A DNA stretch of 64,000 nt from contig CP126193.1 of assembly GCA_030272155.1 (NCBI GenBank), positions 2,604,001 through 2,668,000 on the forward strand. The letters are read 5' to 3'. This document shows, piece after piece, positions 13,492-29,700 of this stretch. Position 1 is the first letter of the stretch. Each line of letters starts with the position of its first letter. The notes beneath the pieces were generated by a model. It was given only the letters and a program-made list of their open reading frames with translations. It was not told where the DNA came from and ran no database searches. Source of the DNA: Tetradesmus obliquus. Taxonomy: Eukaryota; Chlorophyta; Chlorophyceae; Sphaeropleales; Scenedesmaceae. The translations under genes were made by a program, and so were the position numbers.

Positions 13492-16400
13492 TCAGCCCAC
13501 CACTGGCACGCCCTGCAGCCTGTCCAGTGCCGTGCCGAACAGCATGTGCCTGTCGTACTGCCCAGCCACCTCCGCATCAACAAGCCCGCCGTTGAAGATG
13601 TTGAGGATGGTGATGTCCTGGCGGCAGCAGCAGCAGCAGCAGCAGCAGCAGGCAGCAACAGGTCAGTGCCTCAACTTTAGTGCACTGAGGCGTACATGGC
13701 CGCCAGCGGCGGACGTGCTACTGATGCGAGCGGCTGTGTCTCATAGGCAAGCACCCGGCAATTCAAACATGCTGCAGGGTCCTGCTCCGCACAAGGAATT
13801 TGAGAGAGGCACCATGAGGCCCTACTCTATCGTACTGTTGTTTAATTATGTGTTTACAGGAGCCACTAGCAGGCAGCACAGCCGCGCATACCTCGGTGTA
13901 GTGCAGGTCTGGCAGCAGCTTGGGCGTGAGCAGGAAGCACTGCGGCGTGCCCGCCTGGCAGGAGGCCTTGACCAGCTGCGTGAACACCTTGCGCTCGTTG
14001 GCTGGGTCCATGCCCTGGTTGATCTCGTCCACCACGCGGAAGGGAGTAACGGTTACACCCTGCAGATATACAGAAAGGTGGGGTCGGCAGGGAACATACC
14101 GAGGGCAGGGGCGTGACAGATGCAAGCGAGCGGCAACTGAAGCTGTAACGATGGAATATGGGACATACCAATCACGACATGCGGACACCTAGCATGCTGT
14201 GTGCAGGCTGGCATGTGTGCGATGACATGCGGGCAATGAAGCTTCACAGCAAGTATGTTGTGCAGATACACAACAGCAAGCAGGTGCGCGGCGTCACAGA
14301 ATCCTGCCGCCAACAGCAGTGAGGGCATGCCACTAACACCGCGCACGTGCAGCGATGTGAGGTACAGCATGGCGCATGATGTCCACAACAACAGCAAGCA
14401 AAAGCGCATCAGCACAATGCATATGTCATGCAGCTGTACGGTGCCCAGCAGCTGATGCACACAGCCGACCTGCAGCGCGATGAGGTACAGGATGGTGCTG
14501 ACGCTGCGCTCGCCTCCCGACTGCCGGTGCGCCGTCAGCAGCTGCATGTCCTCGTGCTCCCTGAACTTCACCTTGATCTGCACGCATGCAGCAGCAGCAG
14601 CAGCACACACCATGAGGCAGAAAGATGAGTAATGGTCACCACATGACACTCATGCAAGCACATGCTATGGTGCAATACCAACCCAAATTCCAGCTGATGG
14701 CATGCATGCAACACTAACCTCTTCTGCGAGACACACTTGAACGCCCTTTGGGGAACAACAGCGGCCTCACCTGTATGCTGAACTTGTCATAGTCCTCGTG
14801 CTGGCTGAGCAGCACCTCGCCCGCGCAGCCAATCTGCGCAAAGTTGGCGGCAAAGGAGGTGTTGATCTGGCCCACCACCTCCTGCAGCTTGGGCAGCCAC
14901 TCCTCCTGCAGGCAGCAGCAGCAGCAGAAGCAGTGGCGGCAGCAGCAACTTGATAAGGAAAGGAAGCCTGTGAAGGCATGTGCTTGAGCAGCAACCTGCT
15001 GCAGCGCTGCTTCCTGCAAGCTGCAGCCGCGCAGCAACATGCCGCCGAGAGTTGAACACCACAGACACACGCAAATATACAACAACATGCACCACAGCAT
15101 ACGTACGCACCTTGAGCTGCTCAATTTCTGTGTGCAGGCTGTCCAGCTCGGCGCGCTGCGCCGCCATCTCGCCCGCCAGGCGCTCGATCTCCGCCTTGCG
15201 CTTGAGGTACTCCTCCACCACGCGCGGGTTGTTAACAGCAATGCCCGCCACCTCCACCTCCAGCTCAGCGATCTTCTCCTGCAGCTCCTCCCTGCAGCAG
15301 CAACAAAAGAGGATGAAGAACCCCAGGGTTGTCAGCCACTGGAAGGTTGCGTACATTCAGTTGTGTTTCATTTGATGCCTGCCATCTCCACCTCCAGCTC
15401 AGTGGTCTTCTCCTGCAGCTCCTCCCTGCAAGACACAACAAGGCATACGCCACAGAAGGTCATGTTTTATACATAGGCTTTGTTGAAAGCCCGTCACCTC
15501 CACCTCCAGCTCAGCAATCTTCTCCTGCAGCTCCTCCCTGCAAGGTGCATAAATGCGCAATGGACTTGTTCATTGCGGTTAATACAGCGGAGCTGTATTC
15601 CCTGCTTGCCTGGACAAAGGCAAGCAGTGGGTGAGGTGACAGTCACAAGCTGTCAATACCACACGGCCCCCGCAGGCCTCATAGCCGGCACGGCAGCTTT
15701 GCTCTGCACGTTTTGTTGCTGTTCATGCGGTCCTCCTCGTTGACAGCTCATGCATGCGATGCAGTGGATGCGCACCTAGCTGTCTCCTATCAGCTCTTGC
15801 ATGTTGCTGACAACTGATGCAGTAGCCCCAGCCTTGCCTTCCCTACTACCCATCTTTACTTATGGCGAAAGAAGTATTAAATGGCAGGTACGACACTCTC
15901 AGATATACCGTAATGCTCCTAATCATCACCTCTATTAAACACTACCGTTTTTGATGCCCGCGACTTCAACCGCCAGCTCAGCGATCTTCTCCTGCAGCTC
16001 CTCCCTGCAAGTTGTATGAAGGTCACGTATGATACATAAAAGGTCACGTACAACACAAGCTCTGGTCCTGCAGCACCTCCCCCTTTTGGACAAACAGGAC
16101 ATGTGGCTGCCCACATGTGATCGTCGCAGCACAGCTGGCGGTGCCGCATGCTGTAGCAGCGCAGCAGCACCGCCGCGCAAACCTCGCGCAAAAAGCAGGC
16201 AGTCGGCCATCTCCTGCAAGCACACCTGTCATCAGGCATCTGCTCAAAGCGCCGCTTCACCTCGTCGTCCACAGCATGCTGGGACCTAACATATATATGT
16301 GTTACAATATGTCACGACCCGCCGCACCTGTCATCGGGCATCTGCTCAAAGCGCCGCTTCGCCTCGTCGTCCAGCGGGTGCTCCGCAGTGGCCTCATCCC

Positions 16401-26737: not shown

Positions 26738-29700
26738 TTAGCGCCCAGAAGCCGCAGCTGCTGCAGCAGGTGGTGCCGAGCAGGCCTCGCCGCCGCTGCC
26801 CCTGACAATGGTGACATGGTCTGCCACATTGAATGCCCCGCCCTGGTTCTTGGTCCAGCTCCAGGTGGCGTGTGTCTTGTTGAGCAGGTCCAGCGTGCCA
26901 TGGCCAAACGAGGGCTCCCTGCAGCACACAAGACAGCAACAAGCAGGCTAAGGCGGTTGTGCTGTGCGCGTACATACATACATATGTGTCTTGTTGAGTA
27001 CACAGGTCCAACGTGCCGTGGCCAAACGACGGCTCCCTGCAGCACACAGGACAGTGACCAGCCGGCTGAGACAGATGTGTTACAAATTACAAGTTGTACA
27101 GCATCCCCGGCTTATTCCGGCGTGAACGAGACAGACGTGCTGTGTGTGCTTCGTATGTGCTTCGTATGTGCTCGGTGTGGACGCGCATGCTCATGACGTA
27201 AGTTGCAGTGTACACGCGTGTGTCGGAATCTGGGCCCACTTGCGCTGTGTTGCTGGCATAGTGCAAGTGCAGGTCCCTGCATGCGCATGTGCATGTGCTT
27301 GCATATTGTTACTGCCCCAGCGCTCTACACTTGCATGCAAACATGCATGGCAGCCGTATCCGCTGCTATAGAGCTGTGGCCTCGCTGCACCACATGTTTT
27401 TCAACCCTGCCGCTGCAGTGGCTGCGCTCATGTAGCACAGCAGCAGAGTAGCAGCAGAATGTACAAATTACCCTGCTGGCCCACGCACCTGTAGGCGCTC
27501 CAGACTGGCTGCTCCTTGAAGCAGTAGTGGCTCTTCTGCCATGACAGACAGCGCTCCGGCTGGTCCCTGCGGCAGCAGCAGCAAACATGCATGCAGCGAC
27601 AGGCGGTTGGTGCTGCCGCAGGCTTGCCATGTGGACCAGCGCGTGAGGCAGCAACGTAGCATCCCAAGCCATTTGCTAGTTGGGCCTCTGTGGAGTTTGG
27701 ATCACCACACCTCACCAAAGGAGTACCAGCTTCTAGTGGTTACAACAGCTTCAGGGGTGTTACATTTCAGACTTGAAAATTATGTGGCCACTGGGGTGGC
27801 GCCCCTGATTATCAGCAGGTCATTATGCGGTCTCACCGTGGGAACTGCTTGCCGTCTTCTGGGTGGTCGCAGAAGTCTGGCTGGCGCTTCATGGTGTCTA
27901 TGAACTCCTTGTTCATGCCCTGGCAGCAGCAGGCAGTGCCAGCATGCAGTGCAGGTCACACAGTGTGTGAGTATGCTTGCATGTTAATCACCAGTAGCAG
28001 CAAGTCGTTGTTTGCCGACAGCAGGCACAGACAACTAAGCTCTGGCAGTCACAGGCGGGCCCAGCAAACATCCCCTGCTTGTGCTGACTGTGATGGACAC
28101 AACAGCTAGCTGTTCAAAGGACGTCTAGCAGAGCTACGGCTGCAATCATGTCGCTACGCATACACACCTCGCTGTTGCCGCCGTCTCCAATGGTGATGTG
28201 CACAGGGCCGCAGGTGTCCATGTAGTAGTTGCGCACCGGCTTGGTGCGCTCATACGCATGCACGTGGCCAACCAGCTGCACACAGCAGGTGAATAGCCAT
28301 AGCACAGCAGAAGCAGCAGAAGGTTGCAGCTTCACCAACAGAGAACAAGCAGCACATCTTCAAGGTTTAGGGTGCAAGGGATCTTCCAGTGTGTGTACTG
28401 TGCACCAGGGCTAGAGCGCCTATCACTTGCTGAACACCCACATATGCAGACATACGCGCACGTGCTGTGTGCCTGCTGCTGCCCATGTACACACTCAAGA
28501 TGAAAGTTGAAGTTCAAATTGAAGTTCAGGAATTAGTAAAAGATAACATTCTCTCACCATGATGTCCACGCCGTACTGTGTCACCAGGGGCTCATAGCCT
28601 TCCCGCATGCAGTCGTTCTCCTTGAAGTGGCTGGCGTAGGTGCTGTACCAGGGCGCGTGCACCAGCAGGATCAGCCAGGGCGTGACGATGCGGTCCGTCT
28701 GCAGAACACATTGACAGCACTTCGGCAAGGAACCAGTCCAGAAGCATGTTGTGTTGAGCACGCTTGGCCAGTAAAGCTGTTGCCAGGGCGCTGTTTGCGA
28801 GTTGTGGACACGCGATTCAGCAGAGTGCATGCATTCATAGGTGTGATGTGATCAACTTGCTGCACCAGTTACTGGCTTTTACAGGCTTTCCTGCAGCCTA
28901 CTTCCAGACCAATGGCGCTAGTACAGCAGTAATTAACCCCAGTCGCCAAGCTCAGCAACAGTTCAATGGCCCTGCCTACAAACCAACCAAACACTCCCAC
29001 TGCTCACATTGGCCAGCTCCTGCTGCAGCCACTTGTACTGCTCGTCCCTGCCGCTGCCAAAGCCCTTCTTTTCCAGATCAGGGCTGTAGCTGGTGAGGCT
29101 GATGACCTTGAGCACGCCAGGCAGCTCCACAGCATGGTACAGGTTGCTGTAGGGCGAGGATGACGTCACGGGCTCAAAGCTCACAGGAGCTGCAGCGGAA
29201 TGTTTATTGGCCAACGCAGAGCAGCACAGCAGGAGCAGCATGTGATGAGTGCCATTCACAACAAGGCATCAATTGCAGCACAATGCATTTGCGGGCTGGA
29301 GCTGCAATCTGTGCATGGCATGGCAGCACAAGCTTAGAGTTGCTGAGCAACCGATGCATCTTGCATGTCGCCCAAGCAACAGCGAGCTGCAGCACTCACC
29401 TGCGCGCCCTACGCCAGGCACTGGGAACCTGCTGTTGTAGGCCACGTTCCTCCTGCCATCTGGCAACGCCTCAATCTGCAATGCACATGAAATCACGCAC
29501 AGCATTGTGACAACCATTTGCTGCTCGAGTACACTACACGTGGTTGCGCCAAGCATCAGCCCAGCAGAACAAGTTGCATTCTAGTGCTGCTGCGCGCAAG
29601 CATGCGCGGCTGAGCAGCTGCGCAATGGCAGCTTCAGTTGCCAACATCGCTAGGCAATGCATGCATCACACCTCATGGTTGCCGTTGGTGTGTATCAGCG

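Follow-up and report, generated by a model that had tools for sequence, protein, structure and literature searches.

Local duplications copy exon edges into neighbouring introns in a green alga, and the copies diverge with a codon-position bias

In a 64-kb window of the Tetradesmus obliquus genome (C3:2604001-2668000, the whole stretch of DNA from which this work started), short segments at exon/intron boundaries of the SMC5 gene and of a purple acid phosphatase gene recur, splice site included, in the adjacent introns. This raises the question of how spare exon edges come to lie in introns and what, if anything, they do there. The first part has a direct answer: recurrent local direct duplications, mostly with an offset of 100-170 bp, span exon/intron boundaries and leave a spare edge in the intron.

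SMC5 provides the clearest examples, all on the minus strand. The gene lies at 13492-24890 (25 exon cores placed by hand; our hidden Markov model (HMM) gives 13492-23425) and was identified by a match of its C-terminal 224 aa to PDB SMC5 chains (E=3.5e-59). The 5' exon edge at 15240-15296, which comprises the acceptor TGCAG and the first ~50 nt, has three copies, all upstream and intronic, at 15375-15432 (89% over 38 bp of exon), 15486-15553 (94.7% over 57 bp) and 15950-16020. Two 3' edges have one intronic copy each: the edge with donor GTG at 16325-16373 is copied at 16223-16271 (96%, offset 102), and the edge with donor GTGGG at 16888-16943 is copied at 16765-16820 (95%, offset 123). The latter copy begins with CTGCAG and is labelled by the HMM as a 45-nt exon. 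Two further 5' edges, at 18518-18561 (copy 18617-18659, 81%, 38 bits) and 22621-22651 (copy 22730-22760, 84%, 35 bits), are weak and may be chance, since the inverted control is non-empty at such scores (56 records at 36 bits in the exon-centred scan of 245 exons). The "six or more" SMC5 junctions of the earlier note thus come down to five, three strong and two weak, its item at 13.49 kb being a repeat at the gene end. The single edge that it reported in the purple acid phosphatase (Pfam Metallophos and Metallophos_C) was recovered: the host 5' edge at 26871-26961, on the minus strand, has an upstream intronic copy at 26985-27079 (83% over 95 bp).

Whether these genes are exceptional was addressed in 314 kb, 0.3% of the 104,662,953-bp genome (17 contigs), comprising the window and the regions C1 1.0-1.1 Mb, C2 2.0-2.1 Mb and C12 1.50-1.55 Mb. 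Gene models came from a self-written two-strand HMM in its masked and penalised version, trained on hand-picked exons of SMC5 and of what we take to be an HSP70-like gene (window 48.4-51.6 kb, plus strand), whose exons were recognised by eye. It returned 34 genes with 279 exons, with donor AG|GTGNG and acceptor CTGCAG|G. An earlier round of self-training was dropped because it had strayed to CAG repeats, giving 1197 exons with a median of 32 nt. Simple repeats were masked before repeats were counted, so that short-period arrays found by Tandem Repeats Finder (TRF), where masked, lie outside the distance count.

Local repeats up to 1.5 kb apart at 34 bits are direct in 269 cases and inverted in 4; at 1.5-3 kb the counts are 6 and 2. 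The duplications are therefore direct, local and on the same strand, as local tandem duplication requires, and the copying of exon edges into introns, first noted in the window, is real, far above chance and not confined to it. Of 123 bins, none has its nearest copy closer than 60 bp, and 67% have it at 100-170 bp. This spacing, never under 60 bp and peaking at 100-170 bp, suggests a size-limited mutational event. The share of bases under repeats is 0.131 in exons, 0.096 in introns and 0.062 elsewhere. At the edges themselves repeats cover 50-52 of 219 donor and 43 of 215 acceptor edges (20-24%), falling to 12/196 and 12/195 at 50 bp into the intron on the donor and acceptor sides, to 0.07-0.09 at 70-100 bp into the intron and, 100 bp inside the exon, to 0.09-0.10. 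The earlier note had staked its observation on an excess of repeats across splice junctions, and that excess is present in the 0.3% of the genome covered here. The exon fraction under repeats differs by region (window 0.06, C2 0.05, C1 0.40, and C12 0.46, the last from only 1269 exon bases), being seven to ten times higher in the C1 and C12 regions than in the window and C2.

An exon-centred scan at 50 bits found a copy for 61 of 245 exons. Copies of 3' edges lie downstream in 42 records and upstream in 8, copies of 5' edges upstream in 22 and downstream in 2, in the directions already described for the window. This rule follows from the duplication itself, because an event across an edge has to keep the exon intact, and the spare edge can then fall only in the intron. 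Besides these 74 edge records there are 37 whole-exon and 50 interior ones, where random block placement expects 9.1 3'-edge, 9.3 5'-edge, 38.9 whole-exon and 103.7 interior records. The interior class is not relied on, because the inverted control has 42 records at the same score; many interior records are gapped and look of low complexity. At the counted junctions, which were chosen by alignment, GT or AG is kept in 54 of 58 copies, in agreement with the splice-site retention originally described. Clustering gave 80 repeat loci, 36 of which lie outside gene models and are hence unclassed. All 44 inside gene models touch both exon and intron, so that small local duplications do recur in many genes as proposed; random placement would give 31.8 exon-and-intron, 9.9 intron-only and 2.3 exon-only loci.

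Two whole-exon tandem arrays were seen alongside the edge copies. A ClpP-like gene (Pfam CLP_protease) at C1:1.0193-1.0199 Mb has a 118-bp unit repeated at 97-98% identity, and a protein kinase gene at C1:1.0663-1.0671 Mb has a unit of ~165-183 bp at 82-87%.

One explanation is recurrent tandem duplication within one chromosome, after which the copy decays neutrally beside a constrained host exon. This would account for the locality, the direction rule, the offsets and the frameshifting gaps of the copies, as well as for young whole-unit arrays, and near-identical whole-unit arrays such as the ClpP-like one mean that plain tandem duplication surely contributes. As the general account it predicts intron-only loci (the 9.9 expected by chance), and none was seen among the 44. 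It also makes a prediction about the pattern of divergence, which can be read from the exon part and from the intron flank of each copy.

Divergence in the exon part is biased by codon position, which makes the homology look as if it ended at the splice site. Breakpoints at splice sites were dropped as an explanation when a cross-locus control showed intron flanks to be homologous beyond the splice consensus in 55 of 133 records, from 16 loci (above the 99% control level); an earlier flank control, contaminated by array members, was set aside. The duplications in these 55 records therefore extend into the intron, for which plain tandem duplication would also account, and in the other records the flanks are too diverged or were not duplicated. 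A further line was left unused: unannotated repeats share splice sites at their ends in 0.60 of 100 pairs, against 0.02, but ends shifted inwards still give 0.48.

In the flank-homologous records, substitutions amount to 0.131 in the flank, 0.136 at third codon positions and 0.030 at positions one and two. The first two positions have thus diverged at 0.23 of the third-position and flank rate, less than half of the neutral expectation. Edge copies that the gene finder did not call exon (hereafter unlabelled) and that have a homologous flank behave alike (flank 0.189, third positions 0.180, positions one and two 0.048; 15 records, 6 loci), and 71 records without flank homology give 0.156 at third positions and 0.044 at positions one and two. 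Gene conversion is unlikely, given that divergence at third positions keeps pace with that of the flanks.

When a neutral copy is simulated next to a constrained host with the same detection, the ratio of divergence at positions one and two to that at position three (p12/p3) comes out at 0.58-0.68. The observed ratio between hosts and unlabelled edge copies is 0.32 (interval 0.23-0.43, 38 host exons). Between copies it is 0.44 (0.32-0.71, 8 hosts); for neutral sequence, composition by itself would give 0.78-1.0 there, even under strong GC mutability. Copies offset by a length not divisible by three give 0.24 (0.15-0.37, 39 equal-length copies, 25 host exons). Plain tandem duplication predicts about 0.6 and 0.8-1 for the host-copy and copy-copy comparisons, respectively, and we regard it as unlikely to be the main source of the edge copies. 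Codon usage is uninformative as to which copy changed, the commoner codons being in the host in 14 and in the copy in 8 of 25 unlabelled cases. Some copies carry the marks of decay: none of the 12 gaps in 62 junctions is in frame, and only 1 of 23 is in frame in the edge classes of the exon-centred scan; as such gaps shift the frame, part of the copies must be decaying.

A codon signature of this kind would be expected if selection maintained the copies as working exons, alternative or mutually exclusive, with one used per transcript. The whole-exon copies, which have the lowest nonsynonymous share (omega-like ratio 0.15, 17 exons), and the largely intact splice sites agree with this. An edge copy, however, also needs a partner splice site, and such sites are not enriched beside the copies. 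Acceptors scoring at least 5 are found within 45 bp of 0/47 3'-edge copies, against 23% in position-matched introns free of copies (binomial P 4e-6, at one of five score cut-offs tried); at score 2 the figures are 24/47 against 68%. Donors near 5'-edge copies show no difference (1/28 against 4% at score 5). A cross-locus control for these partner sites proved unfit, its members all abutting copies; random and position-matched introns took its place. Beside edge copies, the remainder of the exon exceeds the 95% control level in only 2 of 49 cases.

A second route would use one copy as donor and the other as acceptor at the homologous codon, a proto-splice replacement. This gave no clear signal: at a score of at least 5 the acceptor type reaches 27% against 23% in the control (n=26) and the donor type 13% against 20% (n=32), and at a score of at least 8 the figures are 19% against 11% and 9% against 8%, with an imperfect control drawn from other copies. 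A third is read-through. Of 61 gapless edge copies, 24 are offset by a multiple of three, and only 7 of these can be read through. Frame-incompatible copies are constrained at least as strongly (0.20 against 0.37), and copies at non-multiple-of-three offsets keep their low p12/p3, which means that read-through is not the cause of the codon signature; read-through isoforms as a general cause were rejected, constraint being independent of frame. The codon signature of most copies is thus probably not due to their inclusion as exons, and although protein-coding in look, most copies seem to have no route to translation. Working alternative exons strike us as an improbable explanation for the edge copies.

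The same results bear on three outcomes that had been suggested for the process. New introns are not supported as the usual product, given the lack of a clear signal for the replacement scheme. Growth of introns does not show in the models, where copy-holding introns have a median of 201 (n=62) against 270 (n=183) for the others, some being split by copies called exons. Useful alternative sites are not supported as the usual outcome either, in view of the missing strong acceptors beside 3'-edge copies.

A constrained past with a dead present would also result if the copies were whole-exon tandem duplicates, once selected and later shortened by deletion. Whole-exon arrays exist, as the 37 records attest. 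Deletion would then have to strike mainly the host-facing side (42 against 8 and 22 against 2), and the search beside edge copies found remnants of the lost half no more often than chance. An origin by truncation appears to us improbable too. Merging of two diverged haplotypes in the assembly would explain the allele-like divergence and the patchiness of the repeats, which crowd some regions and are sparse elsewhere. More than two haplotypes would be needed to yield arrays that, counting the host, hold four to six diverged copies, and frameshifts or lost splice sites in some copies and offsets in a preferred range also speak against such an artefact, which we consider very unlikely.

We tentatively propose, at somewhat less than even confidence and as the simplest way to cover all these findings, that unequal joining or exchange between diverged alleles placed functional edges side by side. 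Host and copy would beforehand each have functioned as an exon edge, on separate alleles that had diverged or in closely related genomes, and the codon-shaped divergence would have accrued while both versions were functional. Unequal joining or exchange would then have set both edges in cis, after which copies would decay through stops and frameshifts, so that most edge copies would at present be non-exonic. Such an origin would explain (i) why third positions and flanks diverge alike; (ii) why positions one and two are spared without a route to translation; and (iii) why intron-only events are missing and arrays hold several diverged copies. Events that contain exon would be the ones seen because introns of diverged alleles align poorly. 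A bolder form is doubtful but worth stating: introns may hold "fossil" exon edges of other alleles, left by unequal joins in a hyperdiverse population in which recombining homologues, their introns no longer alignable, end in unequal joins at exon edges. Were this so, each event would leave in cis a fragment from a foreign functional allele, and that fragment could be dated.

Several points weigh against an origin between alleles. It would need very high allelic diversity, and a neutral divergence of ~0.13-0.19 between alleles would be extreme. Divergence varies widely among loci, and some arrays are near-identical throughout, like ordinary tandem duplications. The 55 flank-homologous records come from only 16 loci, and many belong to two near-identical arrays. 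By codon counts the contrast is weaker, with omega-like values for unlabelled edges of 0.31 (0.19-0.50, 36 junctions) and 0.34 (0.21-0.57) that are close to the neutral ~0.55, and half of the unlabelled junctions (18/36) derive from block A. Two groups of 17 copies lie nearer to neutral in p12/p3, the gapless in-frame ones with an intervening stop at 0.50 and the gapped ones at 0.37. The acceptor deficit is clear for 3' edges only, with five cut-offs tried. At 32 junctions the HMM calls the copies exon, and these may be true exons; all exon/intron assignments rest on our own HMM predictions.

Known systems resemble parts of this picture. For a potato RNA-dependent RNA polymerase (RdRp) gene, a tandem duplication of intron-exon structure is described, with splice signals inherited from the parental boundary (PMC4974935); there one gene gained an intron together with an exonic insertion, whereas here edge copies mostly appear to stay intronic and many genes are involved. 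Intron gain by AGGT tandem duplication, represented by exonic proto-splice duplications in Drosophila (PMC2891723), shares with our case a short local direct duplication in genes with splice-like sequence. That model requires both copies to carry AGGT in the exon, with an intron between them that preserves the peptide, a scheme of which there is no clear signal here. Recurrence over many genes, and seemingly intronic copies with a codon signature, appear to set the present case apart from both. Mutually exclusive tandem exons (PMC9013439, PMC9741552) are matched by the whole-exon copies of low nonsynonymous share in the same genes. A complete exon with both splice sites is found in that separate class and not in the edge copies, where 74 partial-edge records with a single splice site stand against 37 whole-exon ones. 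Introners (PMC9860276) likewise alter intron content in many genes, but copy themselves genome-wide.

Here, six genome queries (an edge copy, a spacer, a copy with spacer and three host exons) gave local matches only among the best candidates, which alone were scored; these included one copy of the 15.2-kb SMC5 edge, with local matches only, and the copy with spacer of the 16.2-kb edge, with no match elsewhere. The passages shown of a comparative Chlamydomonas genome paper (PMC8226300) treat intron length and do not mention copied exon edges. Exon-edge copying in an alga is undescribed in the titles and abstract openings listed to us, which is no proof of its absence from print.

If this picture holds, a common mutational process would reshape introns by copying exon edges, datable copy by copy. 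Gene predictors would go astray on untranslated sequence with a clean codon signature, and our own HMM called several copies exons. An origin between alleles, if true, would open a direct test of recombination between very diverged homologues.

One repeat in the window is of another kind. The element at 13415-13530 (unstranded) lies at the 3' end of the SMC5 coding sequence, not at an exon/intron edge, with 13491-13530 and 13415-13454 corresponding to the end of the predicted coding sequence. It is common to a repeat 6 kb away at 6686-7235, which has a unit of ~193 bp and a ~116-bp piece 91% identical to the SMC5 3' end.

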